Of a stretch of 64,000 bases of DNA, positions 7,219 through 58,513 are shown piece after piece. Origin of the DNA: Punctularia strigosozonata HHB-11173 SS5 (taxonomy: Eukaryota > Basidiomycota > Agaricomycetes > Corticiales > Punctulariaceae); NCBI RefSeq assembly GCF_000264995.1, contig NW_006767439.1:1096805-1160804 (forward strand). The letters run 5' to 3'. A program made the translations under genes and the position numbers. Position 1 is the stretch's first letter; each line of letters opens with the position of its first letter. Below the pieces are notes generated by a model. It did not search any database and was not told where the DNA came from. It saw nothing but the letters and a program-made list of their open reading frames with translations.

Positions 7219-8053
7219 ATGTCGATAACTACGCACGTCAATCCCTTTGCGGCATGGTCACAGACCTCCCGCAGTGGCATCCCGCCCTCCGTCGCAGGTG
7301 CACTCCCCTCCATGGTTGTGACACCTCCCGACTCCGACTCGCAATGGGGATCACCCTACACTTCGCCGTATTCCTCACCGTACTCTTCACCGTACTCTTC
7401 TCCGGCGTCTTCACCCGGCTCATCTCCCACGTTATCCGCCTACAAGAGCACGCCGCTCTCCGTTACCTTCCACTTCGCGTCCTTCCAGGACACAATATTG
7501 AACTGCACCGTCGTCGGCCCCCATTCGATGAACTACTATCGCGTGCACTCCGAGGTGTCCTCAGGTGGACTGCTCACGACGCTGTCGGACAGCAGTACCG
7601 GCAAGCCCGTCGGCATCGTCGACTGGCATTCGCGCCCTATCGTCGAAGTGCGTTCCCTCGTACCGCGGCAACGCGCCGGTAAATGGCTACCGCTATCGAG
7701 CGATCGAACGTGAGTCTCGTCTGCACCGTCGCTTCGAATGACGCGGATGCTCAACAAATGGTCTGCAGTCATAGAACGATGATCATTGACGGCGTACAAT
7801 ACGTCTGGAAACCCGCCGGACGAGATCTCATCGTACGTCCGGCATCATGACTCCTATAACAAGGCGGCTGACCGACACATCGACCCTTTAGCTCATGCTC
7901 CCTGGCACATTCCAATCGACACAAGTCGCGAGAGTGCACAAATCGCACAACATGGTCTCCCTCGAGATCAGCTACGACGCTATCACCGGCGGCCTCCTGC
8001 CCGCTATCGTCCTCGGCGCCTTCGTACTACAAAGCGGCCGCAATATCGATTAG
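7219..8053 (+). CDS. DUF6593-like protein, distal copy 1
   Basis: A small protein of the basidiomycete family I recognise as DUF6593-like; its function is unknown. Exons 7219-7709, 7769-7832 and 7892-8053 keep frame and give 238 residues. The middle exon is 64 nt and the last 162 nt, exactly as in the cluster at 26-45 kb. After the conserved FASFQDTILNCTVVG segment come a YYRVHSEV strand, LLTTLSDSSTGKPVGIVDW, and a W-containing strand (QYVWKPAG). The C-terminus is hydrophobic, PAIVLGAFVLQSGRNID, then stop. It differs from the other six by an N-terminal extension of about 70 residues containing a repeated SPYS tract (around 7351-7410), probably disordered. It lies 18 kb from the nearest relative in the window. 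Family membership is secure from motif and intron positions. Confidence 0.85.
7356..7404 (+). repeat. short tandem repeat coding SPYS units
   Basis: Near-identical 12-nt units (TCACCGTACTCT and close variants) repeat in frame within exon 1 of the DUF6593-like gene and encode consecutive SPYS units. The tract could vary in copy number between strains. Confidence 0.6.
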
Positions 8054-23879: not shown

Positions 23880-25164
23880 ATGCCGTCGTACATCGTACTC
23901 CCCGACCTCCCAGCGCACTGCCCTTTCGAGGTTCGCCTCAATCCTCACATGGAAACCGCCGGCCGTGAATCAGAGGATTGGGTCGTCGATGGAGGCAACC
24001 TCGGCGCCAAACACGCCGCCAAGCTTCGCGGCGTCAAAGCACGCCTGCTCACTGCTGGTTGCTACCCTGATGCGGACTTCGACGAGTTCCGCCTGTGCTG
24101 TGATGTCATGAACTGGCTAGTGCGCAGCAAATCTTTCTCATACGATCCATGATTGTGCCGCTGACGCTCGTTGTGGAATCGTCATTATAGTTCCATTACG
24201 ACAATCTCACCGACGATATGGACCAAGCTGGAGCCCGCAATGCGGGAGACATAGTAATGGACACTATGCTTCATCCAGACACATACATATCCGATTCTCG
24301 CATCGGCAAGCTGACCAGGAGGTACGGCCAAACCATCATCACATGCCATGCTATTTTACTGAGATTGATCCGCAGCTTCTGGCTACGATTCCTCAAGATC
24401 GCATCTCCTGGCGCGCAGAAACGTGAGAACTTCACAAGCTGCAAGTGCCTAACCTGATCAGGAATTCTTCAACTCTAGGTTTCATTGACACGACTCGCTC
24501 ATTCCTTGCGGCTATCGAGCAAGAAGCGCGTGACCGGAGGGCCGGTGTCATCCCCGATCTCGAGTCGTACATCCAACAACGGAGGCATACCGGCGGCGTG
24601 CTGCCGTGTTTCATTTTAGCAGAATACGCCAGTCACCTCACCCTCCCAGATGAAGTCGTGGAGCATCCTGTTCTCAAGAATATGGCCGACGCCTCCAACG
24701 ACTTCGTATGCTGGTCCAACGTAAGCATCTACACTTTCAAACGCTGCATAGCATTCTCACATCGTTGTATTCGAATAGGATCTATTCTCTTACAATGTCG
24801 AGCAAGCCAGAGGCGATACCCACAACATCGTCATCGTCGTCATGAGGGTGAGCATATGACGAGCTCTCAAAGCTCTGAGCAGACGTTGACAATGCAACAG
24901 GAGCAGAACCTCGACCTCCAGTCCGCTATCGACGTCGTTGGGGAGATGTGCAAATCCACAATCGACCGTTTCCTTGAGAACCAGGCGCTCCTGCCGTCGT
25001 GGGGCCCGGAAATAGACGCTCAGCTGGTCCCATACGTAGCGTGCATGGCTGATTGGATCGGCGGCAGCTTGAACTGGTCCTACGAGAGCGACCGCTACAT
25101 GGGCGGCAAATCCGAAGAGGTCAAAAGGACTCGCATTGTCCAACTGTTGCCTAAGAAGGTCTGA
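23880..25164 (+). CDS. sesquiterpene synthase (class I terpene cyclase)
   Basis: Ionises farnesyl diphosphate with Mg2+ and cyclises it to a sesquiterpene. Six exons (23880-24119, 24191-24321, 24376-24422, 24479-24720, 24779-24847, 24901-25164) give 330 residues, the usual size of basidiomycete enzymes. The metal-binding aspartate-rich motif is present as DNLTDD in FHYDNLTDDMD. The NSE triad is complete: NDLFSYNVE, spliced across the intron at 24721. The C-terminal RY pair is in WSYESDRYMGG. I chose the ATG at 23880 (MPSYIVLPDLPAHCPF) because homologues begin near this PDL segment; in-frame ATGs at 23844 and 23709 would add 12-57 residues. No P450, oxidoreductase or transporter lies beside it, so no biosynthetic cluster is visible within the window. 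The product cannot be predicted. Confidence 0.93.
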
Positions 25165-26439: not shown

Positions 26440-27084
26440 ATGGCTTCGAACCTACTGGACGTAGGGGCCGGCGGAGAGACCGCACAAACGCTCTACTTCG
26501 TCTCCTTTGCGCCTTCGATTCTGACTAGTGACATCGTGGAACAATCCGGAGACGATTGGGCGAAGAGATTTCGCGTGACGACCGACGACTCCCAAAGTCC
26601 CCAGTTGACGACGATATACGACCTTCGCCGCGGAGAAGAACAGGTTCTAGCGCGCATTGAATGGCAGGGACACCCTGTCGTCGAAATTCGGGACATCCTT
26701 GGCAGGCAGTCTGCTCGTAGCTGGCTCGGACTAGTGCCAGATAGAAGGTACGAATGCAACATCAGGTTGTGCATGAACATGCATTGACCCTCGAACCTTC
26801 CAGTGCAAGGAATATGGAGGCTTCCGGGATCAAATACATTTGGGCTCCTTATCTGGATGATATCTGCGTACGCCGATGTTTCAGAGCTTTGTTGACACTT
26901 TCCTCAACCTGATCCATAACAGCTGTATCTTCCAGATGAGAACTTCACCCGTATCGTCGCGCGTGCGACGAAGAAAGCGGATATGGCCGTATTGCAACTC
27001 AGCAGAGACGCCATCGAGCTCAAGCTTCAGGAAATTGCAATCCTGGCGGTAATCTTGCTGCTAAGCGGGAGAAACATCGACTGA
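26440..27084 (+). CDS. DUF6593-like protein, cluster copy 2
   Basis: First of three plus-strand copies. Exons 26440-26747, 26804-26867 (64 nt) and 26923-27084 (162 nt) give 177 residues; introns are phase 2 and phase 0. Landmarks: TLYFVSFAPSILTSDIVEQ, RFRVTTDD, the polar turn and strand QVLARIEWQGHPVVEIRDIL, SWLGLVPDR, the tryptophan strand IKYIWAPYLDD, LYLPDENFTRIVARATK, and the C-terminal ILAVILLLSGRNID. There is no signal peptide. Together with copy 3 it forms a subgroup marked by an SDIVEQ/CEIVEQ segment and a YVW/YDW-type strand. It is probably cytosolic or peripherally membrane-bound. Function is unknown; a compact Tubby-C/LURP-one-like fold is my inference. Confidence 0.87.
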
Positions 27085-28024
27085 TGATAGCAGAATTCGA
27101 GATCGGGGCCGGGCCCCGTTTCATTTCGGCGAGAAATGAGCACCCTGGGAGGCGCGTTGCGACCATGTCGCTCTCGTAACGATCTGCTTGTCTAGTGATA
27201 GCTGTTCCTGGTGTACAACGCTCGGTGCTTGTCCAAGCCATTGCTAGATCCGCTGATGGCAAGGGTTCTCCGCGTGACTCACCAACACTTCAAGAATGAT
27301 GTCCAGAAGGTCGGTACGAAGACCTCTGCCAATGGTCGTTCACATGCATCGAGTGCCTCAAGAACAAATTCCAGCAAGCTCGTGGTCATCTAGCATATCA
27401 TAGGATCCCCTACGTGATCAACATGAACCACTTCCGAGCCCGCCGCTCCTTAGTATAGCGGATGTGCCGTCTATTGTGAGTCCTGATGTCATCCCTCGAG
27501 AAGCACCGCGAGGCACCGCCACTAAGGGGTGCGGCTTCCATGGCCGTTCCCGAACGCTAATCGGAATGTCGGGGAACCGGAGCCGCCTTCTACTCTGACC
27601 ACCATCACCGTTCAAGCAGATGGTCCTGCCTTCCACGACTCCGGGTTTTAGCGCCTGCATTGGGTCTTGCGCCGCTCAAGCCCCTGCCCACCGTTTGATT
27701 TGACGCCTCTCGTTTTACCCGGGACGGGCTTCACCCTCGTTTGGCTATGCGCGGGGCTCACTGCCCTGTCACTACCACTGTTCTCTCATGTGTCGTGTCG
27801 TATCGGCGGGCGGGCGTCTGTGAGACTCACGATAGGTGATTCGATGCCGCGTTTTCTCCTTTCGTGCGCCTGTCTCCGGCGGCTGGTTCGGTGTCTGGCG
27901 TCAGCTGCAGGCGGAAATCTCTGGCCGTGCCGGGTCCTCTAAACAATATTGAAAGATGAGGAGTACAAAAGGTGGGAGGAGTCGATCGGTGTGAGCAGCG
28001 CAAACGTACCTCAAGTTGATCGAC
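27085..28024. other. intergenic between DUF6593-like copies 2 and 3
   Basis: About 0.9 kb with no supported gene. Small ORFs at 27418-27660 (minus) and 27667-27942 (plus) show no family resemblance, and I see no decayed DUF6593-like copy between the two genes. Confidence 0.4.
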
Positions 28025-28661
28025 ATGGACGCACTCGTCTCAGCACTCGGAGGAGAAGGTGGACGGACCCTGCATTTCATTAACCTGTCTTCGACCATTT
28101 TGGACTGCGAAATCGTCGAGCAAGGATGGGGTGGGCCATCTACGAGCTATAGGATCCATACGGATACGGGCTCTTCGACGGCACAGACGTCGGTAGTCGC
28201 GACTCACGGCGGTAATCCCACCATGATAGCGAGGGTCGACTGGTCGTATACTCCCTACGTCGAGATACGCGAACATCTTGGACGAACCCCCGCCCGAGAT
28301 TGGCTTGTTCTGTCTGGAGATCGAAGGTAGGGCCCCTTCCTGAACGATACGCAGACACGAGCTAACATTTCTGCGAATGTTCAGTGCTAGACGCGTTCAC
28401 GTAAATCGCGTGCGTTACGACTGGGCACCTCTCATGAACGATCTTTGCGTGAGTGCGAGGTCCGATAGCCTTCAGCGTCGTTAATGATAGATTTTCTAGT
28501 TGTACGTTCCGGATCCGATATCTCCTCGGATCATCGCTCGTTGCGTAAAGACGCGACAGAGCGTCACGCTTCACCTCAGCAAGGAAGCTGTCGACCTGTG
28601 CTTGGTCGAGACGTCGATCGTCGCCGTTGTGTTGATGCTCAGCGGCAAGAACATCGACTGA
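28025..28661 (+). CDS. DUF6593-like protein, cluster copy 3
   Basis: Exons 28025-28326, 28385-28448 (64 nt) and 28500-28661 (162 nt) give 175 residues with the same intron phases as copy 2. Landmarks: TLHFINLSSTILDCEIVEQ, SYRIHTDTGSS, MIARVDWSYTPYVEIREHLG, ARDWLVLSGDR, VRYDWAPLMND, LYVPDPISPRIIARCVKTR and the final SIVAVVLMLSGKNID. The start is the ATG at 28025 (MDALVSALGG). It lies 0.9 kb downstream of copy 2 in the same direction and is its closest relative here, so the pair looks like a tandem duplication. Function unknown. Confidence 0.87.
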
Positions 28662-29749
28662 GACCGGCACCCTACCCAAAGCGCGGTCGCAGGGCTCCTG
28701 GATCGGTCCTGGACTCTGCGCACTTGCTCGGACTCTCACTCCAAAAGACTCGCGCGGATGATCAGTATTACGATAATTAGGTTATTTCATTGTTATGGAT
28801 TGTAGAGCATGATACCATTGCTGTCGGTTATTTTGTATTCGTTGTGCTTTCCAATTCGTAAATAAACTTTTGCTGAAGCATGCTAGTAACCCTAACCCAT
28901 TGCCTCAAGCTGTGCGCTGCCGGGCACTATTTTGCAACCTTGCGTTTAACGTCAGGCCTCCATTGTGGTCGATTTTGTGCTTGATCATACCAGCATCAGG
29001 AACTATGCTAAAATAATCTATGCCGGTCTTCGTCATCCGGTGCCCCGAGAACGCGCTCCTTATGGAAGATCATGCACATCGCATACATAAAGCAAAGCAC
29101 GCTATCCTTAGCCCACGCAGAAGCTCATCTTGCCAAGAATAAGAGGGCTTGAGTCATTCACTACATAATGTGCCGTGGTCACCGTTGCGTTTGACCTGGG
29201 AAGCCGTCGGAGGCCACAACACAGAATCGGTATGAGTACGGGATGCACCTTGTCCTCCTCTCATCTACACCTCACCAATGCGTACGTCTGTTCAACAGTC
29301 AACTCCATCTTCTACTCAAGGTTCCCCTACCACCAGAACTTCTATCACTATCCACAACTCCAGCGATCCATTACGGGCCCCAAAACGGAAGCTTCACGTA
29401 ACCTTGGCCCCAGGTCGACTTGTCATCAATGGCCTAGGTTCTCTTGCGCGGCTCTCACAGCCATTCGGGAGAGATCATCGCTCCTGCCAATCAGGTTTCC
29501 AGCTTTGTCTACCAGACAATCGTTAGAGGATGACGATGCCGCACTCCCCGCCGAGCTCATATGATGTGGTAAAACATTGTGCCATGGGCTCATACCGCGC
29601 CGCTCGACGGTCCGGTCTGCGTCCCCTTAGTAAACTGCGCAGTAACTCCTCGACGGCTCCTGTGTCATCGTCGGGAATTGGGAAGGCGCGGATGGCGTAC
29701 AAATATCTGCTGAAGGGGTGGAACCACAACGCTCAACGGTGGGTCGCCC
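28662..29749. other. intergenic with telomere-like motif
   Basis: TAACCCTAACCC occurs at 28887-28898, about 230 nt after the upstream stop. ORFs at 29175-29564 and 29278-29526 are serine/threonine-rich and unlike any family I know; they could be a small exon or chance. No gene called. Confidence 0.35.
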
Positions 29750-30391
29750 ATGATGACTGCATCCCAGCTCAGCAACTCCTCTTATACTCTGCGATACACG
29801 GCTTTCTCACCGAGTGTGCTGGAATGTGACGTGGTGGACTCTACGAGCGCATGCCGCTACACGGTGGGGACGATTTCCACATTCGGATCGCTGCTGACTA
29901 CCGTCAGAGACCATCCCAGCCAGAATAAGATCGCGATGATCAACTGGCAAGAGTCTGCGACCGTCGAAATTCAAGGATACAGCGAGGGAATGAACATCGC
30001 AGACTGGCTCGTCCGCTCCGAAGACTCCAGGTTATTGAATGACATCCTCAAATCATTACGGCACGCTAACATTTGGTCCTACAATCAGGTCAAGGACGAT
30101 GGAAGTAGGGAACATGCGCTATCGATGGATGCCGATTGGTGACCACCTCTGTGTAAGTTTCGCGGAAGCAGTCGGTAATCGGAAACCATCCAGCTTACAC
30201 GTCCAGTTCAGCTGACAATGCACCTTACGCCCACGGCAGACAGTAGCTCTACGCTCTGCATCTTGTGTCGCGTTACTAAATCTCGGACGGAAATCACACT
30301 GGAGCTGTCTCGAGAGGCTATGGTCATCGGCCTCGAGATACCTGCAGTTGTCGCTACGGTCATATTGATGAGCGGGAAGAACATCGACTAA
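29750..30391 (+). CDS. DUF6593-like protein, cluster copy 4
   Basis: Exons 29750-30030, 30089-30152 (64 nt) and 30212-30391 (180 nt) give 174 residues. Landmarks: YTAFSPSVLECDVVDSTS, CRYTVGTI, LLTTVRDHPSQNKIAMINW, ADWLVRSEDSR, MEVGNMRYRWMPIGDHLC, LTMHL, CRVTKSRTEITLELSREA and the final VVATVILMSGKNID. The last exon is 18 nt longer than in copies 2 and 3. Details such as CDVVDS, WLVRSE, the MEVG element and LTMHL make it closer to the minus-strand copies at 40-45 kb than to its plus-strand neighbours. The alternative start at 29753 changes one residue. Confidence 0.87.
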
Positions 30392-33300
30392 AAGAATCCC
30401 GAGCGTTCCCAGCCGGTTACGCTCGCGGCATCCGGACGGAATGGCGAAAACCATCATCCGAAGTCCGTCCGTCCGAGTGAGGATGAAACAAACACGACAT
30501 GCCACGGCTTCTGCCATACAGTCAGTTATCTGCTTGATCAGTTTCATGGAACGTCGCTCACGAGGATTCGATAGGCGTGCCGATTACTACCGTAGCTCCC
30601 AGTCTCCGTTTCCCAGGAACCGAAGTTGCGCCGTGGGACTCTTTATCGCGGTGAGATGAATGCACGCGTACACAGTTTGCCGTTTGACTCCGTTCGTGTA
30701 GTTATATGGCCACCTTGTACCTATGAATTTAGTGAATGCATGTTCGTAGCCGAACATTCGTCAGTGGACGTGAGGACTGTAAATGAATCTCTGCGGATAC
30801 CGTTTAGGTATGAGAACGACGAGCGACTAAGGCGTGGTGGCAGTTGCAGAGCGAATGGGTATGCTCTTGCTCTACAAGCAGATTAGACAGATCTGGCGCA
30901 ATTCCGAGTCCGCGGAGCGTGATAAATGAGCTTGGACAGAGTCAAGACAGTACATGCATGCACAGGACGCAGCTTGTACATCGCGCGTGGCATTGGCGAT
31001 GCCTAGGAAGGTGATAGTATATCCTGACCCTGATTGACCCCATATGGAAGGTGAAAGGGATTAGACTGCTGCGGGCGAGGTCCAGAACGAGCGTTCCAAG
31101 ATATATCAGTCTCTCAGAAGATTATTGGCTGAAAAAGCATGCGAGAAGGAGCCAAGAAATGAGATGGTTGATGTGCCACAGAGTGAGCAACGTATGATAC
31201 CGTGTCGGACACGGTATTATACCACCTCGATTAGGTCTTCGGCATTAGTGTTAATTCACCTGATCTCTGGGCTCTCACGTGTATGACGTGGCCATCCTCA
31301 GGCTGTATCGTTCACTCGTTGTCAGTGACCACCGGCACCTCACATGAACGCAACTATGCATACCACGACCCTCAGTGTTGTCATCGCATCACCAGGACAT
31401 TGCAAAGTACTGCAGCGCGGTCATTCGCCACAATCCCTGAGAAATGGGAACGTAGACCCCCGTCCCGCGGCATGGCAAAAATGAACATCCGTATGTTCAG
31501 AGAGAAAGAAGGACGGGATGGTCCAGGAACGCTGAGATCCGCCGGCGCAACGCATCGCCTGGAGCGCCTCGTTTGGATATTGACTTTGAACTCATGTGCC
31601 CTGAGAGCGAGAACTCGTGATCCCAAACACGATCGACCCGGGTGCCGGCCGTTGCGTGGCATTCAATAAGCTTCCGATCCAATACCAGCTTCGGCGGCGA
31701 GCTGTGCCGCGTTAATAGCTTTGCTGCAGGTGAGGGAGTCGGGGACGCTGAGAAAGAGAGAGAGAATTGGTGGCGTATGTCCGACTCGGAGCAGAGTACA
31801 TAGATCTGGAAGATTTCGGTCGCGATTTGCCTCCGTAACGGAGCGATCTGGTGGCTGTGGGACGTTCGTGCCTTCCTGATTCTGGATGATTGATTGATTC
31901 AGTCACTCACTCATCCGTAACCGCTGGAAGGCGTGGTCCGGAATAATGCGGGTCAAGGAGAGGCCTATACGGGCGTCAACGAGCGCAGTGACTGCGTCAG
32001 TACGATGCGGATATGATGTATCACTTTACTTACTTGTCGGCGTGCTGTGTTGATACACCATACATCCCAGCGCGGTCCGACATACACAGCTTCACTGATA
32101 TACGTCGCTCTGTGAGACCGTCCCCGACTCCTCGTCCGAGTAATGATGGAATATTATCCAATGCCCACGCCCATGAACCCAGACCTTTAGGTACTCAGGC
32201 ACGTCGATATGGAACGGGTCTGCGGAGATCGTGGCTGGTCCGATGTCTTCCTGCCGCCGGGATCAGGTCATCAGGAGTGTGGGTCGAGTACACGTATGTA
32301 TGGGTCGAAGATCAGAGAAGGAGTGCCATCCTTACACTGACAGAGTGCTCGCGGAGAGCTCGGCGACGCTCCGAGCATGACGGAGATCGTTATATGAGAT
32401 CGTTGGTCATGCGGCATCGCTCTGTATTGTTGGTCCGCGCGGGACGGAGGAGAGGGGGGCACAGCTTGCGTGAGCGAATGCCGCACACTCTAGACGTCGC
32501 CTGACGGCCCTGGACATCATGTTGTGTCGGAGAACAGCGCGCGGAGATGGCATGGAGGAGGTTATCCTTGGACTTTGTGGGCGATCGTGTGTCGACCAGA
32601 GCAATATCAGAGCACGGCGGATTGGACGAAGGCATGGCGAAACATCATGACGGGCTTGCTGGCGTGCGTTACAAAGCGTGCGAGCAGTCCAAGCTGATGA
32701 AGACAAGATTGCGGGGGCTCGAGCAGAGGATGTTTGCCGAGCTGACGTGTCCGTTACAAGATTCATACCGGCCAAGTCGCGTCAGACCACCACTACGCCT
32801 GACGTGAGGCATGGATACGGGTATGGCACGTGAGAATGCAGACGACGCGCACCTATTTGCTACCGAGTTCGCCAACTTTTGACTATCCCATAACCCAGCT
32901 GAACAACTTGCCTCGAATACAGATCGCGAACCGAAGTCTCAGGTTTCTATTTCGTAAATGTAATAAAAAAACGACTGGTTGAAACAGAGTCAGTAACGAG
33001 TTTTTGGAACCTTAGAACGAGCGAGGCCTGAGCGTGCAGCAAGACAAGCAATCGAGACGAGCGTCTCCCGCCTCCCGACGCCCGACGCCACGCGAGCAAA
33101 GCACCGCCATGCTCCTTTTTGGGGCATACAAGCTACCTTTCCGGTAACCACCCCTTCGCGCCCTCGAAGCCCGCCGCTCGCTCGATCACCAAACGCTCTT
33201 CCGGCCTCGGACGACCTTTCAAATTCAGTATTTATCAGTGAATATCTTTTATTCTGATTTTTTGACTACCGATCTAGCTTTGGGATCCATCAAATCTTTT

Positions 33301-34602
33301 CGCATCTTCGCCTATACACCTTCCTACTCGCTTTACACATGAAAACTGTTGCTTACACTCATCCTGATGTCGAACCTTAGTTTAAGATTTTAACAACTAG
33401 GCGAGACTGTAAGACCCCTATGGGTTCCTCCAGGACTCGATTTTCTCGGACCCAACTACGCACTTTCACCTATCTAGAGCGCATTTTAATGCACATCAAA
33501 GAGGGCTGGAGGCCCTCACATACATGGCATCTTCTTTTTGCCATGGCGCTTGGTTGTAACTGTGAGATCCTATCTTTGATTTGCCCGAAGTCTGACATGA
33601 TTTGTCAGAAAGTTTTTGACATCGTTATTCCTGTTAGGAAAGCACTCATCACAGCTCAAAGAACTCGTTTGTAACGCGCCCCGTACTTTGAAATCATAAA
33701 CGGGGCTATGTTATCTATTTTCATCGTAGTGAGTTTACCTGTTCCAAGTCGAATGTGTTCTGCCTTTCGTATGGTGAACGTCAATTAACCGTCAATGAAC
33801 ACAGGTGTGTCTCCCCTACCTTGAAGCTTACTGCTCAAAAGAATGCGTCTTCGGGGTTTCTGAGCCGCATGTTTGCACAAAAGCAACCGTTGCCAGTCAT
33901 TTGACAGGAGAGATCATAGTGGCGACCCCCGGATCGTGAATCGTGATTCATTTATTACATGTCCGTGTCGTCACAACTGCTTCCGGGCCTTCGACATGAT
34001 AGAAGACGTGAACCGGAGCGCACTTCGCCTAGCCAATTCCCAGGAGCAGACGCTCCTGTTCGGATCGTGGTCGAATGTATTGCATCCCGGAAGGCAAGCT
34101 CAGCCAATGCTCAGCGGACTCCGGAGCGGAACGTTCAGGGAGACGAACAAGCCGCCGCCCCGGCCGACGGTCGCAGTGGCACAGCCGCGCAAAGCCGATT
34201 GGGCGGCGCACGCGAAGCGCAGGCGGACGACGTAGACGTGACGTCATGGCAGCCGCCCAAAGCGGCAGGACCCTCTTTTTCGCCAGAAGAGATCCGAAGG
34301 GGGGGGCTCATCGTAACGCGTTACACAACCTGCCGCGTTCGTTTTCTCTTGTGGAGCCCCGACCTCTTGCGATTGTGCGGACGTTGTCACGGCCAGAGAG
34401 CCTCGCACTCGCACTCGTACACGCACAAACCACCACTCGTCGTCGTCGTCTCGCCCAGCGACCGCGACCCCGCTGCGGCTTACACCAGCAACATACGACC
34501 AGCCACGACCAGCGCGCGCGCACCTCCTGCTAATCAGCGCCCCGCGGCAGGCGGAGCTTCTGGATGTGAATAGCGGCGCGTCCCGCCGTACACAGCAGCG
34601 CC
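30392..34602. other. 4.2 kb without a supported gene; AT-richer patch
   Basis: I see no gene up to the RNA-binding protein start. The stretch 32940-33900 is clearly richer in A+T than its surroundings and contains TGTAAGACCCC at 33409, which resembles the start of some fungal LTRs; I could not find a matching end or a target duplication. GA-rich simple sequence lies near 31750-31775. ORFs of 120-204 codons at 33873-34573 are in a GC-rich promoter-like area and overlap in several frames. Confidence 0.35.
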
Positions 34603-37600
34603 ATGGCCTTATTCGCAGTGCGTCTCACCGTCTCCGGGCGCCTCGCCGATCCATCGCTGAACGTAACACCAGGACCACTCGTCGCGACCCGCACCCGACT
34701 ACCCCACCACCACCACCACCAACAATAACAACCACACCCACCCGTCGCTGCCGTTATCGTCATCACCACTAGGCCAACCCCCACCTCAGACCACGCACGC
34801 GATCCTGAACACGACTAATCCCGCTCTGTCGCGTCCGGGCAGCAGCGGCATCGGAGCAGGAGCGGGAGCGCTCTTGACCGCCGCCTCGCCCGCGCCCTCG
34901 CGCCCGCCGCCGACGGACGACGACATCGAGGCCGTCATCCAGATGGCGACCGCGTCGCACATGTCCTCGCCCGGCGCGCCTATGCGCGACACCCGCACGC
35001 AGCTGTTCGTGGGCAACGTGAGTTATCCTCCTTCCTCTTCCTCCTCCCTTCCTTTCTCTTTCCCTTCTCTTCCTCTCGGATGTCTTTATTTCTTGTTTCT
35101 CGTCGGATCGGGGCGGGGCTGTATGCGCTTTGGGTGATTGGTGGATGGGGTATGCGAGATCGTGGATCGCAGGCTCCCTCCGAATCGAATCGGGACAAGG
35201 CGAATCGACACTTCCGTCCATTTTCACCCATACATCAGGAAAAATCGGACTATCGAAAGAGTCGCTTATTGGGTACCGAAACCCTCTAAAGCTACTAAAT
35301 GAGCACGTTTTAGTACGTTTTAGGAGGTTTTTATCAATTCCGGTTTTTCCTGATGTATCCCTGCTCTGACTTCTTGAGACTGACACGAACCCCGATGACC
35401 CCCCCTCTAGCTCCCCTACCGCGTCCGCTGGCAAGACCTCAAAGACCTCTTCCGCAAAGCCGGCACCGTCCTCCGCGCCGACGTCTCCCTCGGGCCGGAT
35501 AACCGCTCCAGGGGGTACGGCACCGTCCTCCTCGCCTCCGCGGAAGACGCCGGGCGCGCGATCGACATGTTTAACGGGTACTCGTGGCAGACGAGGGTGT
35601 TGGAGGTCAGGCCGGATCGGCTCGGGGAGGGCGCGGATCCGTTGAGCGCGGTGGGGAGCGGGATGGGAGGGGTGGGGACGCCGATAGGGGGAGGGGCGGG
35701 GACGCCGTTGGGAGGGGCCGTTGGAGCGTTGGGAGGGGCCGTTGGAGCGTTGGGAGGTGGTGTTGGAGCTTTGGGAGGGGCCGTTGGAGCGTTGGGAGGG
35801 GCCGTTGGAGCGTTGGGAGGTGGTGTTGGAGCTTTGGGAGGTATGGGGTTGGGGACGCCGTTGGGCGGGCATGGTCATTCGTTGGGCGAGCTCGGCCAGG
35901 GATCGTCGAGGCCCGGGAGCAGCGCGGGCGGGTTGGGACCCGGACCCGCGCCGGGTCCGCCGAGTCGGACGCTGTTCGTAGGGAACGTGAGTCTTCCCCC
36001 CCCCCTCTCTCGCCCATATAGCCAGCCGTGCTGACTTTTTTTTTTCCGAACGTGCTGCCAGCTCCCGTTCCATACGCAGTGGCAGGACCTGAAGGACCTG
36101 TTTCGCCAGGCGGGCGTCATTTTGAGGGCGGACGTCGCGCTCGGGCAGGATGGGCGGAGCAGGGGGTTTGGTATGGTCAGTTTTGCGACGGAGGCGGACG
36201 CGGAGAGGGCGGTGAGGATGTTTAATGGGTTAGTGATTCTCTCTTTTATCTCTTTCTTGTTCTCGTCTGTTTCCTTCTCGTTTGGCGTGCAGTGGGAGGC
36301 TTAGGATTTTCTTTTTTCTTGGCGTATGCGCGTTTTCTTTTCTTTTTCTTTCATACGCGTTCTCTCGCCGTTATGGGACGGTCTCCGTAGGCGTATATGC
36401 GCCTCCGCTATTTTTTTCTTCTCTATTTTTCTCCCTTCGGTTTCTGGCGGGCCTGCTTTGGTTTCTGTGTCGCAACTCTGGTCGGGTGTGCGCCCTCTTG
36501 GGATGGGTTCGCGGGCGCGGGCGTATATGCGCACTATCCTTCGATTTTCTCTCTTTATTGCACCCCAATCGAGCGCATGTGTATTTGGGCACACGTGTGC
36601 ATCCCTGTCCCTTGCATCCTTCCGGGTTGTTTCAATTGTTCAGACACTTGTTTTCGTCCATTTGAGAACTCATCTTGACCACCTTCGTTCCGTACATACG
36701 CCCTATTACTTGCGACCCATGATCGCTCACGCATTCGTCGCAGCTACGAATACAACGGCAGGCCCTTGAAGGTCCACTTTGACAAATTTGGGAGCCTGTC
36801 GCAGCCCGCGACGGCGCCGACGTCACCCATCCCGGGGTCGGCGTTCGCGCACTCGCCGTTCGGCGGCGTGTCCTCGGCGGGCGCTCTGCTGAGCGCGATG
36901 TCGCACCTACCCCACTCACCGCTATCGTTATCGTTGGGCGGACAAGGACAAGCATCAACCTCCCGGGCGCTCTCTCCGTTCGCGCTCCAGGGATCGTCGC
37001 CCACGGGAGAGCAGGCCTGGCAGAGTCAGTCGCAATACCTGCAAGACCGGCGAGGTAGCCAGGGACAGGACCAACATCACCATCAGGGCCCACCGGGGCA
37101 TATCAGCATGCCCCAGGGATACCACCTCGACGTCGGCCCGCCGTCCGGACCGAGTTCGCCGTACTACTCGCCTTATGGAGGAGGAGGATACTCAGCGTTT
37201 TCGGTCAGCTCGCTGCTGCAGAACCCCAGCGGGGGGCGCCATCCGCTCGCGAGCTCGCTCTCTCCGCAAGACTCAGCTTCGGGCTCTAGCGGGAACTCGC
37301 ATGACACGACGCCGTCGTCTGATCGGTCCGGCCCGTCGATGACCTCGGGAACGTCCGCGCAGACGCAAAGGGCGACGTCGGATTCGGTGCTCAGCACGGC
37401 CGGCACCTCGTCGTCGCCATCGTCATCGCCTCAGCCTCCCTCCGTCGGACGGCACTCGTCGCATCCTGGGACCATCCCGCTTCCACCCCCGCCACCCATC
37501 AGCGCGTTCCCCGCCTTGGGAACGCTCTCGCCGCATCTCATGAGCGGCCCTCACGGGCCACCGATGATGACGCCCCCTCACCATTACCAGCTGTCGCCGA

Positions 37601-38691
37601 TGCACCACCCTGGCCAGCACCAGCACCAGCACCAGCACGGGGGGATGATGATGACGCCCGGTCTGCCGCCGATCACGCCCAGCATGCCGTCCTTCACATT
37701 CTTCCCCCAGATGTCGCCGCACCTGCCCTCGCCGTCCGTTGCCCCCGGTAGCCCGGGAGGGCCGATGATGGGTATGCATCCCCACGGCCACCACCCGAAC
37801 CCGTTCTTTGCCGGGGTGAGTCCCGCGGCTGCGATGGGCCCGCCGACGCCGATGGGCGTGCTGAGCCCTGGGTTGCCGTTCAGCCCCGGCGTCGCGCTCA
37901 CGCCGGGCAACTTCTGGGGAGCGGGCGCGAACGCGTACATCAACCCCGCCGTGGGAGCGCCTGTGCACCGCCCGCCGGAGGAGGAAGGAGCAGGGGCGGG
38001 ACAGAGCCAGGAAGGGGGTTACTTCCCGCCTGTGCAGTATACGAGCTCGGCGTCGGGGTCGGGAGGAAGGACGGAGGCCGGGTCGGTGTCGGGAAGCCAG
38101 CAACTGTTGGAGCCGAGCCAAGAGCAGGGGTATTTCCCGCCTGTGACCGGGTTAGGGCGTGGGAGGGAGGGGGAAGGTATAACGAGGAACCAGAGCGGAG
38201 GGTCGAGCACGAGCGAGGGGACGCCGTCGAGCAGCCGCGACGGACCGTCGCCCGTAAGCACGACGACGACGAGCTGGTACGATGACGCGCAGTCGACTTT
38301 GCTCGCGAAGGGGTTCGAGAGCCTCGCGGTGGACGAGAGGGACCGCGGCAAGGACGATAACGGTCTGAAGACGCGGACGTACTCGGCTGGGTCTGGCGCC
38401 GCCGGCGCCGGACGTCCGAACACGCTAGCTGAGAAGGGCCGGTCGGGGTCTGACCCTGCACCTGCCCATGGGCAAGGCGCAGGGAACGGGCACCACCAGC
38501 ATACCGCCGGCTCGTACGGAGTCGGGATGGATATGGGTGGCACAGAGAGCGCGCCGCCGACGATGCAGCGCCCGGAGGATGTCGTCGCGGCCTCGCCTTT
38601 CCGCGGCCTCGGCACGGACTACGGAGCAGCACAACAAAAACAACAACAGCAGGCTCCTTGGGGTACCATGGAGCACATGCGGAGCCACTAA
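34603..38691 (+). CDS. two-RRM RNA-binding protein (Gbp2/Hrb1-like) with long disordered tail
   Basis: Likely nuclear mRNA-binding protein of the type that accompanies transcripts out of the nucleus. Model: 34603-34662, 34790-35017, 35411-35986, 36062-36228 and 36744-38691, 992 residues. RRM1 has RNP2 as [20 protein letters not shown] and RNP1 as SRGYGTVLLAS; RRM2 has [20 protein letters not shown] and SRGFGMVSFATEADAERAV. A glycine-rich linker encoded by a minisatellite separates them. The last 650 residues are rich in Pro, Ser, Gly, Gln and His (HHQGPPGH, HQHQHQHGG) and have no fold I recognise. Exon 1 is tentative: it was chosen because the GT at 34663 and AG at 34789 keep frame; another start upstream or at 34943 is possible. 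Introns of 393 and 515 nt are long for this genome. Confidence 0.85.
35230..35358. mobile_element. possible MITE-like inverted-repeat element in an intron
   Basis: Inside the 393-nt RRM1 intron, ATACATCAGGAAAAATCGG (35230-35248) is repeated in inverted orientation at 35340-35358 with a single mismatch. The 91-nt interior is AT-rich and codes for nothing. A non-autonomous DNA transposon is a reasonable reading; a functional RNA hairpin within the intron is the alternative. I see no clear target-site duplication. Confidence 0.45.
35716..35841 (+). repeat. coding minisatellite, 6 x 21 bp in A-A-B, A-A-B order
   Basis: Six 21-bp units encode the linker between the RRMs. Unit A (GGCCGTTGGAGCGTTGGGAG plus G) and variant B (beginning TGGTGTTGGAGCTTT) follow the order AABAAB, so a 63-bp block has itself been duplicated. 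Protein units are AVGALGG and GVGALGG. Confidence 0.9.
36229..36743 (+). other. long T-rich intron of the RNA-binding protein gene
   Basis: This 515-nt intron splits the end of RRM2 (MFNG|YEYNGRPLKV). It is rich in T tracts and contains the 12-mer GCGTATATGCGC twice (36391 and 36521). No ORF with support lies within it. Typical introns in this window are about 55-60 nt. Confidence 0.7.
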
Positions 38692-40439
38692 TCGGGCCGA
38701 AGTGTAATGGGAGGGGAATCTTGGATGGAATCAGTTCATATTGTTGGATGTCGTCGCCATCATCATCTCTAGGGAAACTAGGAAGGGGCGAAAGGAAAGG
38801 AGGGAGAGCGTTTTGCGTCTCAAGGTTTCATTCTTGCGTTTTCTTGGCCTCCGTTCCATTCACTACTATCATCTACACAGCCTCGTTCTTTTCTTTTCCC
38901 TTCCAAGTACATACACAGACCTTGGGACTCCAGGAGATCATTCCAGCAGCACGCGCATATATACATGTCTCTCTTTGGTTGTTCGCCTCTTTTGTTCCTG
39001 TTCCTGTTCCTGTTCCTGTTCTTTTTTCTTTTCTTAAATCTCAGATTGTAATAATGCTGTATATCCTCGAAATCTCATCCTAATCTTGAGCGAGAGGTGC
39101 GTTCGATAGTATCTCTTCTCGGGGTCACGGTGGCACTGGCAGTCAGAGATCTGAGATATGCCGCCACGTGGTATGGGTCCCCTTTTCCGTCGTCAGTCCT
39201 TTCTACTCTTTTCAAGTCTTAGTTTGGGGAGGGGAGGGGGGACGGAATATGGTCTATTGATCTTTGCTCTTATCCCAGCCGGGTTCATAGCCCGGGGTTA
39301 GATTCCAGAGAACCCTACTATGTCACCATCAAGTGGGCTTTGCGACCCACTTAGACCTTGCAAGCAAACACCCTTGTTTGTCTCGCTCCATGCTTGTAGC
39401 CTGGCTGCTCGTATTGATCCGGTGGCAGAGACGGACTTAGCGGTCAGCATCATAATCATACAAATTCCAAAACTGATGAATAGCGCAGTGAACACGCCAT
39501 GTCGCGCCTTCGACTTAGTGATCACTTATCGCTATACTAGGGCATATTCCCTGTGAATGCAACCCTCCAATTACTCAGACCATGCCGCGCAATGGCATTT
39601 TTGGAAAAACAAAAAGAAGAAGAAGATCCGTAGTTCCGATCTCTCACCTTCATTTCGCTGAGATGTCTATTCACCATGGCGCGTGTAACGGGTCTGAATG
39701 CCGGTTCTTGCTGACGCCGATGCTTGTGGAAGGGAACACTGAATTCTCACCGCGCCGCTCGCCGCTTGTGACACGCTCATTCGAGTCAACTGCAATAATT
39801 CGCAACCCCATGCTCTCAGAGGAGCGCGCGGCATGTTTCCGCGAAGGGATCTGTGAGCCGCTTGATTGATTCTACTTCCCCGGTAAGAACTGACCTGATT
39901 CCAGGTTCCCCGGACCCACCGGCGGGCCAAAGAATGTATGGCCGGAAGATCCGAGAGTTGCAAAGCTCCACACCGAGAGATCTAGAATGACTCTCAACCG
40001 CCCCGTCGATACCTCGACTTCGTCCCGTGTGAATGGTTGGAGTGGGCGCCGTTTCTCTTTGGTACCGGATTCCTTCCGCTCTTGCGTACATTGAATTCTG
40101 AACCCGTTTCACTCGCCGCAGAGTCGCGCTCAGGGCCAATCGCTGAATTGAGTGACGCGCCCATGGTTATTGGCGTTGTAACCTTGGATGGCTTGCGCTG
40201 TTGCATTGATCTTGCACATGGAGCGAGAACACTCGAGAGAGGCTATCTTGCCCTCCGGTCGTCATAATATGAACGTTAACTCGCTTTCAGCGGCGGCGCC
40301 GAGTACGTTCTTATTACGCAGTGAAGAGAAGCATGACAGATATTCAATGACAGGCGGTGTACATGAATGTTCGAAACTAGCAGGCATACCGAATAACTAT
40401 GAGGTCCGACGAGGTGCTCTGGAGAGAAACCCTTGCTAT
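38692..40439. other. intergenic, 3' UTR with TTCCTG microsatellite
   Basis: The 3' flank of the RNA-binding protein gene carries at least four TTCCTG units at 38995-39021. A minus ORF at 39298-39525 holds one hydrophobic segment but is otherwise unsupported. No gene recognised. Confidence 0.4.
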
Positions 40440-41042
40440 TCAATCTATGTTCCTCCCGCTCATCAACAGCATGGTAGCAACAATTGCTGGCAGTTCCAGA
40501 CCAATGACTATTGCGTTCTGAGTCAACTCGAGCGTGATCATGTCCCTGGTCTTCGTGACGCGGCATAAAACGTCAGCCCCCGGACGGAGATGCATAGTCA
40601 GCTACGGTGAATCCGTCAGTGTACCGCTCTTTTCAGCGTTGTCAGGACCTACGCAGAGGTTGTCCTCATGCGTAACCCATCGATAGTGCATAGCGCCGAG
40701 CTCCATGGTTCTGGAACTGAATACGGTGACTCCGGTGTTAGCTCGCAGCCAACAAGACAACAGTGCATAGTTGGAGACTGACCTTGCGTCCGAAGATCGC
40801 GCAAGCCATTGACTGATAGGCTGCTTCTCGAGGTAGCCCTGGATCTGAATAGACGGAGAGTTCTCCCATGTAACTTGGGCCACGGTTCTTCCAGCCGGGT
40901 CTTTGACCGTGGTGGACAGCGTGCCAAAGATTGTCTCCGAACGTATAACGTATCGCGGTGCGCGGTTGGATCCCACCACGCTGCAATACAAAATGGTGGG
41001 CGAGAAAGAGACGAAGTGCAGAGAGCTTGCAAAGGCAGCCAT
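40440..41042 (-). CDS. DUF6593-like protein, cluster copy 5
   Basis: First gene of the minus-strand triplet. Exons 41042-40783, 40716-40653 (64 nt) and 40601-40440 (162 nt) give 161 residues, the shortest copy. Landmarks: LHFVSFSPTILYCSVVGSN, PRYVIRSETIFGTLSTTVKD, GRTVAQVTWENSPSIQIQGY, SQWLARSSDAR, MELGAMHYRWVTHEDNLC, LTMHLRPGADVLCRVTKTR and the final IVATMLLMSGRNID. It shares LTMHL and the MELG/MEVG element with plus-strand copy 4. The gene is a bare domain with no signal peptide or extension. Function unknown. Confidence 0.87.
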
Positions 41043-42549
41043 CTCGGATGATGTTCAACGGCTTGACATTGCGAAGGCGACGCCTTTTCTACTTTGTCGA
41101 TTCTCCACCGGCTTTTACAACGAAGGTCGCGGCGGTGTATACGGGCTTAACATGAAGAACTCAGAGCTCTGCATTTCCGCGGGGCGAGTTCCACAGGACC
41201 GTTCAATTTCGGAACGTAACCCGGTCGGAGTGGGACGGAACACGCGTTGTACTGTATGGCGATGACAGAAAGGTGATTACTGCCGACATTTCGACATTCA
41301 AGGCGGTCGTAGGGAGCTTGGCAGTAATTTTTTTACAGCGTCCAATGTGCCATGTAATCAGCATGTAAATTGGATGGACGAAAGAAATGACGTGGTGACT
41401 ATGTGTTGGAAAGCCAGCGCAGAACTCCTGTAAAAAGAACATAAAACGGAATAGCGCGAGGCGGGCCGAATAGGCCGCAGGCATGAACGTACCATGGGTC
41501 AAGCAGAGCAGATATAGACGCTGTCGTCAATCTATTGTCGGAAATTGACATCCAGCGCGTTCGTAGTCTGCGCGATCAACAGCACTCCGAGCCGATGTGA
41601 GCACAAGCCCATGCTGTTTTATAACTGGCCGCGAACAACGGGTGTCTGGAGTGCTCCTTGAACTGGGCCAGCTACTACGAGTCTGGTAGAGAGCTGCTTA
41701 GAATGCACTGCGCTTCGGCACAAACTGTCGTCGTGGCAGATGGCAGCCTGAGAGCGTAGAGGTGAAAATGCTGGTCCTCGCCTATGTTCTCACGCACTAT
41801 GGCCATCAAGTTCTACACGCGACCCGTGAACGTCGCTGCAACCTTCTGACCGCGCACCGTCATCTTATAGGAGATATCCTACGTAGGATGCAGTAGCGAG
41901 AACGTGAGGGCAAGAAGAGCCCCTCCCTACCCGCGCGCAGTGCCGCCGCTGTTCACGTTTCCACCTCCGAAGCTTCAACAACGGCCCTCCTTCACGACCA
42001 AGAACTCGTTGCATCAAGTTGCCCTACACACTCTTTCACTAAAATTTTAGCAGTCGCTCACTGCTCTGTGGCTCATCGCTGGTATCCCTTCAATGTTTTT
42101 ACACTTATTTCATTCTCTTCCAACTGGCTCCTCGCGAGTCGCCGCTGCCTTTCAATATTGGGTAGTTTGAGGTTCTGTCCCGCAGATACCCTTTTTTTCC
42201 TGTACACCTCAAGAGAAGTTCCGAATACTCATCAATATCAGTGCGCCTATCTCTATGTCGATATCTCCGACCGATAACATGGCTTACTCCGAATCCGCGT
42301 ACGTAGTAGTGTATGGATCACATCCATAGAGCGCTCACCTTGATCTCAGGCATACCAAAACGCGTGGATAACAATCAGAAAAACGAAGAATGTTCAGCGT
42401 CGCTGACTGCACACGAATGTCATGAATAGGAGTTATATGGTAAACGTGTCGATTCGAACTGCATCAAAGCAATAATCTATGTAACCGAATGACCCCGAGG
42501 TTCGTATTTGACTTGTAGGCGCTGCGGAACTGTCTTTTAAACAACGAAG
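41043..42549. other. intergenic between DUF6593-like copies 5 and 6
   Basis: About 1.5 kb. I see no ORF with a motif on either strand. The first 100 nt would hold the copy 5 promoter. Confidence 0.4.
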
Positions 42550-43217
42550 TCATCGATCAATGTAAATCGATGAAAAGCTTGCCTCATACCAGTCAATGTT
42601 GCGTCCGCTCATTAGGATAATCGTAGCGACAACAACGGGCTGCTCGAGGCCTAGAGCTAGTGCATCGTTCGAAAACTCTAATATAACCTGCTCCCGCGTT
42701 TTGTAGACGCGGCACAGCGTATGCTGCGTGGACATGAAGACAGGCCCTCTCTGAACGGTGAGCTACGCATCCATCAGTGACGTAGTTATTATTAGCACCA
42801 TTCAGCCAGGATAAGCACTCACCAGCAGATGATTGCCTGAGGCGGTCCAGGTATACCGCGTTCTTCCTACTTCCATGGTCCTTGAGCTGGCATCGCTGGA
42901 AGGTTTGAACTTGCAGTCAAGGCTAATAAACGCATTCAAGAATGCACGGACCTTCCATTCTCGGAACGCACAAGCCACTCCGAGGCGGCCTGCCGCCCTA
43001 TGTGACCACTGATCTCGACTGCTGGCTTGTTCTTCCAGTCCAAGATTGCCAGAGCTCTGCCAAGTGCGTCCGTCACAGTGGTGACGAGGGTTCCGTTGAG
43101 CAGCTCCGTCCGTACGGCATAACGAGGACCACCGTTGGAGTCAACAACATCGCATGACAGGATAGTCGGGGAGAAAGACACGAAGTGAAGGGAGAACTGA
43201 GTCAGGAAGAAATCCAT
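42550..43217 (-). CDS. DUF6593-like protein, cluster copy 6, with stop-loss tail
   Basis: Exons 43217-42952, 42886-42823 (64 nt) and 42762-42550 (213 nt) give 180 residues. Landmarks: LHFVSFSPTILSCDVVDSN, PRYAVRTELLNGTLVTTVTD, RALAILDWKNKPAVEISGHI, SEWLVRSENGR, MEVGRTRYTWTASGNHLL, LCRVYKTREQVILEFSNDA and VVATIILMSGRNID. Every other copy stops directly after this D; here the stop codon is TGG, and translation runs 13 more codons to TGA at 42552-42550. Alternatively the GGTATGAG at that point is a splice donor interrupting the stop codon. A second possible acceptor for exon 2 upstream would lengthen it by 9 nt. A TATTTAAG box lies about 40 nt upstream of the ATG. Confidence 0.86.
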
Positions 43218-44143
43218 GGTATGAATGGTGAGTGATGGAGTCTGCTCTTGCGTCGATATTTAAGCACTAGCTGCCGGATGAATGGGAATTTGACCCACAA
43301 GCTCGACTCGCAACGCCCCGTCCACCGGCAATAGCATTAGACCTGGGAAGAGAGTTACTCAGTCTCCATTTCGCCTGAACGCTGCATGGTTCATGATTGA
43401 CCGGAGCGCAACGCGACGCTCCCAACCGCGGAAGCATCGGGAGCTGCGTTTCCCGATGGTAGGATCGCGCATCTCGCTCGCACGTCGCCAAAGGAGTAGA
43501 TTGGTCGCGAGATCGTCCTTTGAGCCGCCTGCGCTTCATGAAGTTTATGAACAAGCACCCCGGCGAGAATTTCCCAATCGGGAGAGCGCAGTCCGGATCC
43601 GGTTCGCGTGGCTGTGGTCTCGTGGAGCCAAACGATCTTTCGGGCTATCCCTCCGTCCGCTTGTCCCGGTGTAGCCCGACACGATGCGCTTGCAGCGAAA
43701 GTGGAAGCGCAGCGTGCAGAACCATAGTGCGTACAGGCGCAGTCGGTTCAGGACCAGATCGTCCGGCGCGCAGTGAGTGAAACCACCCGCAACCACGCGG
43801 AGACCGTCGGAGTTCATGAACAGGTTTCAGGTCAACCGCAGCATCTGTAGCAATTATGGACGGTTGAACGGGAGCTCTAACAGAGAGAATCAGCCTCCGA
43901 TTGTGTCGAGACGCCCTACCTGAGTTACAGTCATTTGGTCAGCATGTTCCGGCGAATCGTTGGCCGGTTGATGTGACTTAAGAACGTGTATTATGAGTCA
44001 TAGTTGTGGAATGTCATAGGGAGTTACACCTGCATTAATAGACGGTCACATATGCTAGGATCTAAGGAAACTGCACGCCCCACATTTCAGCGACGATTTC
44101 TCGCAGCCCAGAAGCTCTCCTACTCACAGCTTGGCCCGATCCA
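43218..44143. other. intergenic between DUF6593-like copies 6 and 7
   Basis: About 0.9 kb. ORFs of 86-95 codons near 43267-43817 overlap in opposite directions and have no motif. No gene called. Confidence 0.4.
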
Positions 44144-44761
44144 TCAATCAATATTCCTGCCGCTCATAAGTACGATAGTAGCGACCGCAGCCGGCAGCTC
44201 GATGCCAAGACGTGAAGCATCGCTGTCGAGCTCCAAAGAAACCTCCGCCCCAGTCTTGCTAACCCGGCATAAAATGTGCGGCGGCGTCGAGAGATCGGCC
44301 GATAACTGTATCGTCAACTACGTGACGTCAGTATTGGGTGTGAACAGGAGACGGATGAGAAACGCACATAAATGCAATTGCCCACGGGCTGCCACGTATA
44401 GCGCACTTTCCCCACTTCCATATATCGAGCTCTGAATCAACCTGTTAAACACGACCAAAGGATAGACAATGAGGCTGACTTACCGCAGATCTGGGGAGCG
44501 TTCCAACCATTCCGCTACTGATGTTCGCCCAAGGAAGCCGCTGATCTCGACTGCAGGGTTGTTTTGCCAATCAATCAGGGCAAGCGTGCGATTGGCGGCA
44601 TCTGTCACCGTTGTCAACAGTATCCCGTTGACCACGTTGGACTGAACACGGTAGTGCGCCGTTCCCTGTGAGTCAACGACATCGCAATGCAGGATGCTCG
44701 GGTTAGCGCCGACAAAGTGCAGATGTCGATAGCAGGTGAATTGTTGCGATGGAGAGGTCAT
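44144..44761 (-). CDS. DUF6593-like protein, cluster copy 7
   Basis: Exons 44761-44484, 44431-44368 (64 nt) and 44317-44144 (174 nt) give 171 residues. The true ATG is at 44761 (MTSPSQQFTCYRHLHFVG); the frame is open further upstream but without an ATG. Landmarks: NPSILHCDVVDSQG, HYRVQSNVVNGILLTTVTD, RTLALIDWQNNPAVEISGFL, AEWLERSPDLR, MEVGKVRYTWQPVGN, LCRVSKTGAEVSLELDSDA and the final AAVATIVLMSGRNID. It is most similar to copy 6, 0.9 kb away in the same direction, suggesting tandem duplication. A TATATAAAAG-like box on minus lies near 44835, about 75 nt upstream. Confidence 0.87.
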
Positions 44762-56979: not shown

Positions 56980-58513
56980 ATGTTGGCCCTCGCCGTTGCT
57001 GCATCGTTCATCGCCTCCGTGGCGGCTCATGCGACTTTCCAGGAGATCTGGATCAATGGTACGTCAGGCTTCGTTCGTTTACTGGAGGTCAAGGCTAATA
57101 CCACTATCTAGGTGTCGACTTCGGCTCGACTTGCGTTCGTCTCCCGCAGTCCAACTCACCGGTGACGGACGTTACCAGCACGGCATGTTTTGTGATGAAC
57201 ATGTTGCTTGCATGCAAGTCTGACATTCTCTGTATATCAGGCCATTGCTTGCAATGCCAATCCGTCTTCCTCGAACGGCGTGTGCTCCGTCATGCGTAAG
57301 TGACAGCTGATTTCTAGCGCGCCTGATCACAATTTCACAAATTTTATCAGCTGGGGATCAAGTGACCGTTGAGATGCACCAGCAGCCAGGTGATCGTTCA
57401 TGCGCGAACGAGGCCATTGGGGGCGACCACTTCGGTCCGATGCAAGTCTACCTCGCTAAAGTCGACGATGCGACCACCGCCGTGGGCTCCGACGCCAACT
57501 GGTTCAAGATCGACGAAATGGGCATGCCGTCGGACAGCCCTGACTACTGGGCTACCGAAGTTTTGAACGTGAGCGCGACGTGCTACATGATGTGCGAGAA
57601 GATGATCTGAACCAGGGCAACGATCCAGGACAATTGTGGTCATTACACTGTCACTATTCCCTCGGACATCGCTCCTGGAAATTACCTCCTGAAGGCGGAG
57701 GTCATTGGTAAGTCATTCCATTGTTGCGAATTGTACGCCTTTGTTGATGGTCCATCGGGATTAGCTTTGCACGTTGCCAGTAGCCCCGGAGGTGCCCAGT
57801 AAGCAACGCGTTGTTTCTCCAAAGTTATGACCCATCTGAAAGGCAAACAGGTTTTACACATCCTGCTACCAGATCAATGTTGGCGGATCTGGGACCGCTT
57901 CCCCTCCCACTGTAAGTTCCAGCTACCGGTTGGTTCAACTCATCTCACGAACATGACGCATAGGTCAAGTTCCCAGGTGCCTACAGTGCTAGCGACCCGT
58001 AAGTTGCATTTTCGAATATTTGATGGCTCACGCATTCATGAGTCGCACTACTAGTGGTATCCTCATCAACATCTACCAGTCGCTGACGGCGTACACCATC
58101 CCCGGACCGACTCCCCACGCCACTCAGTCACCCGCCGTTGCTAATACTCCATGGCCAACGACTGCGACGTGGAACACCGCTCTCCAGCCTTCTACCGTCC
58201 CCACCGTCATGCCGTCCGGCGCTGGCGGTGCTCCCGCGCCGACCTCGAAATCTGCGTCTTCATCATCCAGCGCTTCGCACTCGTCCGCTCCTGCGTCATC
58301 CACGCCGGCTCAGACTTCTTCTGCGCCTGTCAGCAGTGGCACCGGCACGCCCGCTGCCAAATACGGCCAATGCGGCGGCATCGGCTGGAGCGGTAGCACT
58401 GCCTGCCAATCCGGTTCGACCTGCACGGTCGTCAACAGCTACTACTCCCAGGTAAGATATCGTTCTTGCTAATGCTTGTGCCAATAGTAATCATACATCT
58501 CCAGTGCCTGTAA
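56980..58513 (+). CDS. AA9 lytic polysaccharide monooxygenase with CBM1 (copy 1)
   Basis: Secreted copper enzyme that oxidatively cleaves crystalline cellulose. The signal peptide [16 protein letters not shown] ends before His1 of [20 protein letters not shown]; His1 forms the copper brace. The second histidine is in [15 protein letters not shown], and [16 protein letters not shown] and [16 protein letters not shown] hold later landmarks, including the axial tyrosine. A Ser/Thr/Pro linker leads to a C-terminal CBM1, [19 protein letters not shown], ending SQCL. About nine exons. The donor after VTST is GC (57183). At the segment after EVLN, the acceptor equivalent to copy 2 would shift frame by one; using the AG at the CGATCCAG site restores it. 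The promoter and coding sequence are tandemly related to copy 2. Confidence 0.92.
57183..57240 (+). other. GC-AG intron of AA9 copy 1
   Basis: The donor reads ACG|GCATGT and the acceptor TATCAG|GCC. Splicing gives VTSTAIACN, aligned with VTSTDIACN of the neighbouring copy, whose intron at the same site has a normal GT donor. Confidence 0.8.

Follow-up and report, generated by a model that had tools for sequence, protein, structure and literature searches.

The window analysed here is a 64,000-nt stretch of Punctularia strigosozonata HHB-11173 SS5 (contig NW_006767439.1, positions 1,096,805 to 1,160,804). It carries seven small genes, g1 to g7, whose predicted products fall in DUF6593 (PF20236), which Pfam lists as a family of unknown function. 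Six of the genes form two triplets 10 kb apart, one on the plus strand (26440–30391) and one on the minus strand (40440–44761); g1 lies apart from them on the plus strand. All seven spliced proteins score above the Pfam gathering cut-off of 27 bits (28.4–41.3 bits), so that the DUF6593-like label given to them in the original prediction was right.

On the plus strand, the spliced model of g1 (7219–8053) joins exons 7219–7709, 7769–7832 and 7892–8053 (238 aa; 41.3 bits against PF20236), that of g2 (26440–27084) joins 26440–26747, 26804–26867 and 26923–27084 (177 aa; 35 bits), that of g3 (28025–28661) joins 28025–28326, 28385–28448 and 28500–28661 (175 aa; 29 bits), and that of g4 (29750–30391) joins 29750–30030, 30089–30152 and 30212–30391 (174 aa; 35.3 bits). 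On the minus strand, g5 (40440–41042) has exons 40783–41042, 40653–40716 and 40440–40601 (161 aa; 31.9 bits) and is the member whose structure was modelled. The spliced model of g6 (42550–43217) has exons 42952–43217, 42823–42886 and 42550–42762 (180 aa; 37.3 bits), and that of g7 (44144–44761) has exons 44484–44761, 44368–44431 and 44144–44317 (171 aa; 28.4 bits).

Each gene can be spliced into an open model that contains a phase-2 intron (52–66 nt across the set), a middle exon of 64 nt, a phase-0 intron (50–60 nt) and the motif SG[KR]NID in the last exon. A search for GT-AG introns in which the phases and the 64-nt exon were imposed leaves one to four models per gene; without this constraint there are many open models, amongst those listed 6 for g1, 53 for g2 and 19 for g7. 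All GT-AG two-intron models with a middle exon of 40–90 nt (174–473 per gene) were also scored against a profile made from the six remaining proteins, a test which is only partly independent because the profiles came from proteins themselves built with the constraint. In 7/7 genes the top-scoring model is one with a middle exon of 64 nt. The chosen model ranks first in six of them; in g7 a variant with a 162-nt last exon outscores it by 0.3 bits and leaves it second. At the level of sequence, this confirms for all seven genes the plan of two introns and a 64-nt exon that had been claimed for them, with the same starts and strands.

The last exon, stop codon included, measures 162 nt in g1, g2, g3 and g5, that is in four copies, the number previously proposed. 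It is 174 nt in g7 (162 nt being equally possible), 180 nt in g4 and 213 nt in g6. The accompanying claim that the remaining copies are up to 30 nt longer therefore fails for g6, which is 51 nt longer. In this gene the stop codon after NID has been lost and a 13-residue tail added, which accounts for 39 of the extra nucleotides. First exons range from 260 to 491 nt. The product of g1 has a Ser/Pro-rich N-terminal extension, within which a SPYSSP-like stretch is repeated (7351–7428); this repeat is absent from the other six genes.

A DNA pattern for SG[KR]NID, with serine as AGY, has seven matches in the window, all of them exact and all within g1–g7, the genes for which the motif had been proposed. 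With two mismatches allowed, none of 100 shuffled controls reaches seven (mean 1.39). An eighth copy was not found in the window by a six-frame profile scan, in which the next best hit scored 5.8 bits. A minus-strand segment just past g6 (42212–42283) was considered as a decayed DUF6593 C-terminal end and, at 3 bits (E 8.7), was treated as a chance match.

Nothing sets the seven proteins outside DUF6593, and their distinctive features within it are the C-terminal tail of g6 and the long N-terminal extension of g1. They have no match in NCBIfam. No relative was found in phages by tblastn with g6 as the sole query, and amongst viral contigs there were 21 pattern matches, none of them a relative. 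These results are as expected for what we take to be a fungal family. A search for DUF6593 in one bacterial genome gave no match, and amongst 14 control genomes there was a single match, below the cut-off, in Thermotoga maritima. Neither 'DUF6593' nor 'PF20236' is mentioned in the open-access literature searched (5.39 million papers).

The seven copies are deeply diverged. Pairwise protein identity is 30–53 %, and the synonymous divergence (dS) is undefined in 14 of the 21 pairs, which we read as saturation, and 1.6–3.8 in the other seven. DNA matches between the gene neighbourhoods (600 bp either side) fall inside exons or no more than a few bases beyond them; three matches at 100 % identity are merely the overlapping flanks of adjacent genes. 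In the 400 bp upstream, no 8-mer is common to at least four of the seven genes. In a midpoint-rooted tree, neighbouring genes pair together, g2 with g3 (98/96) and g4 with g5 (96/94), and g4–g7 form a group (89/93, not starred) in which the fork placing g6 and g7 has support under 80. As the members of each pair adjoin in the array, this is the pattern given by old tandem duplication, and the genes look like old tandem duplicates rather than the product of a recent burst. The array has probably been split by an inversion, since some 10 kb now separate g4 from g5 and the two are read from opposite strands.

The local expansion that the original prediction proposed is therefore plausible, but its recency is not supported by the identities, the dS values and the confinement of DNA matches to exons and their edges. 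The same evidence bears on the suggestion that the genes represent a recent, diversifying expansion serving non-self recognition. The local arrangement and the unequal first exons would suit such a scenario, but the saturated or high dS, the low identity and the absence of DNA matches beyond the exons and their edges, overlapping flanks apart, do not. No result pointed towards non-self recognition, and we regard such a recent expansion as very improbable. For the developmental role also suggested, nothing spoke either way.

The structure of one member was predicted with AlphaFold2. g5 alone has two introns whose lengths (66 and 51 nt) are divisible by three, so that its contiguous translation stays in frame through both; this translation was the input, and the alignment was made up of exon fragments from the other genes. 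The alignment used for the model (A3) omits exon 2 of g1 and has a small number of misplaced residues in the exon-3 rows of g1–g3; another alignment (A4) was discarded because MAFFT had misplaced exon-1 fragments. The model has a predicted local distance difference test score (pLDDT) of 71.0 and a predicted template modelling score (pTM) of 0.64, with the introns and exon 2 poorly predicted. DSSP assigns 13 strands and a last helix. When the intron residues (87–108 and 131–147) are excluded and the strand split by intron 2 is joined, the predicted layout is 12 strands followed by a 12-residue helix, ELPAIVATMLLM; the figure of 12 is our own count on this one prediction with its retained introns.

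In a Foldseek search of the Protein Data Bank (PDB), the g5 model matches 1zxu with E 1.1e-4 and probability 1.00, the sole match below 1e-3 amongst 920. This structure is Arabidopsis At5g01750, a tubby-like protein of the LURP-one-related (LOR) family. Chains of the tubby protein TULP1 stand at ranks 4, 8, 14 and 16 (probability 0.54–0.85). A viral structure library gave no match below 1e-3.

As a control, bacterial LOR loci were collected (the best 80 of 147 confirmed), one of which was modelled by the same pipeline. Its model (pTM 0.83) shows 12 strands and ends in a helix of 12 residues. It too matches 1zxu alone below 1e-3 (E 1.7e-5), with TULP1 at E 0.026–0.14. Since the control gives the same top match with a similar E-value, DUF6593 stands, by E-value, near a true LOR. 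The sequence profiles of the two families were also compared with hhalign. A first test against 79 of the 80 LOR loci (L032 was dropped for its length) gave a match of 37–38 columns, which one of 400 shuffles reached. Against 18 LOR rows (17 distinct), the DUF6593 profile aligns colinearly over 108 columns, from g5 residues 21–140 to LOR residues 17–138 (score 22.6, P 0.0091), and in both families the alignment stops close to where the helix begins. After column shuffling, 3 of 1200 comparisons reach this score and none of the 1200 reaches 100 columns; the reversed control scores 11.8. In the N-terminal part the register of this alignment (offset 4) agrees with the two models, which were built separately, g5 strands 29–38, 41–47 and 53–59 matching strands 25–34, 37–43 and 49–56 of the LOR model. 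Prediction thus supports a tubby/LOR-like fold for these proteins.

Several observations weigh against such a fold. Of the 200 residues in the g5 model, 39 are encoded by introns and 54 have a pLDDT under 50; these low-scoring stretches hold most of three of the 12 counted strands (108–115, 118–125 and the one joined across intron 2). Its template modelling scores (TM-scores) to 1zxu are low (0.37/0.44, with a root mean square deviation of 12.1 Å), those of the LOR control being far better (0.71/0.66 and 3.5 Å). hhalign's own probability for the DUF6593–LOR alignment is 4.5 %. No solved structure matches by sequence, the best being an unrelated one at E 0.036, and no tubby, LOR (PF04525) or scramblase (PF03803) model of Pfam matches any of the seven proteins at E≤1. 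The hits of g5 also include other barrels: LolA/LolB lipoprotein carriers make up 15 of the 50 matches listed. They stand at ranks 2, 3, 5–7 and lower, and their probabilities, at most 0.77, are similar to those of TULP1.

These last matches raise the alternative that DUF6593 is some other barrel carrying a lipid or hydrophobic ligand, LolA/LolB-like or otherwise, and that the resemblance to 1zxu is coincidental. That no LolA/LolB protein occurs amongst the 50 matches listed for the LOR control adds to its appeal. Yet the TM-scores of g5 to LolA/LolB (0.15–0.25) are below those to 1zxu and no higher than those to TULP1 (0.25–0.34), a true LOR shares the top match of g5, and the DUF6593 and LOR profiles align colinearly. 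A coincidental resemblance accordingly seems improbable to us.

The C-terminal hydrophobic segment invites a different interpretation. The usual threshold for mean hydropathy over 19 residues is 1.6. The maximum over such a span is 1.74–2.11 in six of the seven proteins and 1.35 in g7, whereas the three LOR proteins checked of the 80 reach only 0.97–1.22, a further point against the tubby/LOR-like reading. The segment sits at the extreme C-terminus, and in g1 the uncharged run extends to 20 residues. The proteins may therefore be tail-anchored, the segment crossing the bilayer and leaving SG[KR]NID as a short tail beyond it. Against this main rival, the uncharged run, SG included, comprises just 12–13 residues in the other six proteins, and the predicted helix is 12 residues long, as in the LOR control. 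PMC10584680 describes a hydrophobic helix inside the barrel of the tubby fold, and PMC10264818 describes the helix of LOR proteins as likewise enclosed. By analogy with these barrels, the DUF6593 segment is most likely the core helix of the predicted barrel and not a membrane anchor. We consider tail anchoring unlikely, and the link with membrane biology suggested by the original prediction survives in another form, that of a segment resembling a tubby/LOR-like core helix, and not in that of an anchor.

On this basis DUF6593 probably belongs to the tubby superfamily, though not to LOR itself. It resembles LOR (PF04525; At5g01750, 1zxu) in its best structural match, in its equal strand count and terminal helix and in the colinear profile, and differs in lacking a PF04525 match, in its more hydrophobic C-terminal segment and in the SG[KR]NID cap. 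The tubby C-terminal domain (TULP1; PDB 2fim and 3c5n) supplies four chains amongst the top 16 of the 920 Foldseek matches, but is a larger domain and scores weakly against g5. The phospholipid scramblases (PF03803) are of the same superfamily, and their C-terminus likewise has a hydrophobic helix, formerly taken for a transmembrane segment; they differ in that their Pfam model finds none of the seven proteins at E≤1. PMC5415576 and PMC10264818 already list tubby-like domains in fungi.

The explanation that we favour, and hold to be fairly probable, is that the seven genes are old tandem DUF6593 duplicates, each encoding one divergent tubby C-terminal-like barrel plugged by a hydrophobic helix. 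Each gene would give rise to a small single-domain protein in which about 12 short beta strands close round a short C-terminal helix; the hydrophobic segment would be the plug of the barrel, and SG[KR]NID would cap its helix. Such a protein may be soluble or peripheral and, by analogy with related proteins, may use its barrel loops to bind a lipid, a phosphoinositide or else a partner at a membrane face; the copies would differ in their loops and N-terminal extensions. According to PMC10584680, tubby-like proteins are phosphoinositide binders or scramblases, and by this analogy the DUF6593 members would most likely be small peripheral proteins that bind lipids or membrane surfaces.

The surroundings of the array were surveyed by a Pfam scan of 30 of the 47 open reading frames (ORFs) of at least 150 aa in the window. 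Matches include a major facilitator superfamily (MFS) transporter, homoserine dehydrogenase, SET, AA9, terpene synthase, glutathione S-transferase (GST), serine carboxypeptidase and CBM1. The terpene synthase family 2 C-terminal domain (24445–25161, +; 9.3e-26) lies in an ORF that ends 1.3 kb upstream of g2. The cellulose-binding CBM1 domain (58020–58469, +) and the AA9 lytic polysaccharide monooxygenase (LPMO) domain (60211–61053, +) point to a fungus that degrades plant matter; taken together, the Pfam matches suggest a wood- or litter-decaying basidiomycete. Between the two triplets, tandem G-rich 21-nt units (35687–35854) lie inside a 434-aa minus-strand ORF, and a 641-aa low-complexity ORF (36766–38691, +) is rich in Pro, Ser, Gly and His; neither ORF has a Pfam match at 0.01.

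Should PF20236 already be assigned to the tubby clan CL0395 in Pfam, the fold part of this account would be known already; what is new here is the modelled layout of one member and its match to 1zxu. Plant LOR proteins have been tied to defence, according to PMC10264818 and PMC8624885, and a role in stress or defence for DUF6593 is, by this route, an idea rather than a result. In its widest form, DUF6593 would be a fungal-expanded arm of the tubby/LOR group, arrays of small lipid-reading barrels that have diverged in their loops and N-termini, with a stress or defence role at the membrane surface like that of the plant LURP-one-related proteins, which we put forward as a doubtful though conceivable extension. 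The tubby/LOR link itself offers another reading of what appears to be a membrane anchor, and gives DUF6593 a concrete and testable hypothesis, namely that its members may bind lipids or phosphoinositides and may be located peripherally at membranes.

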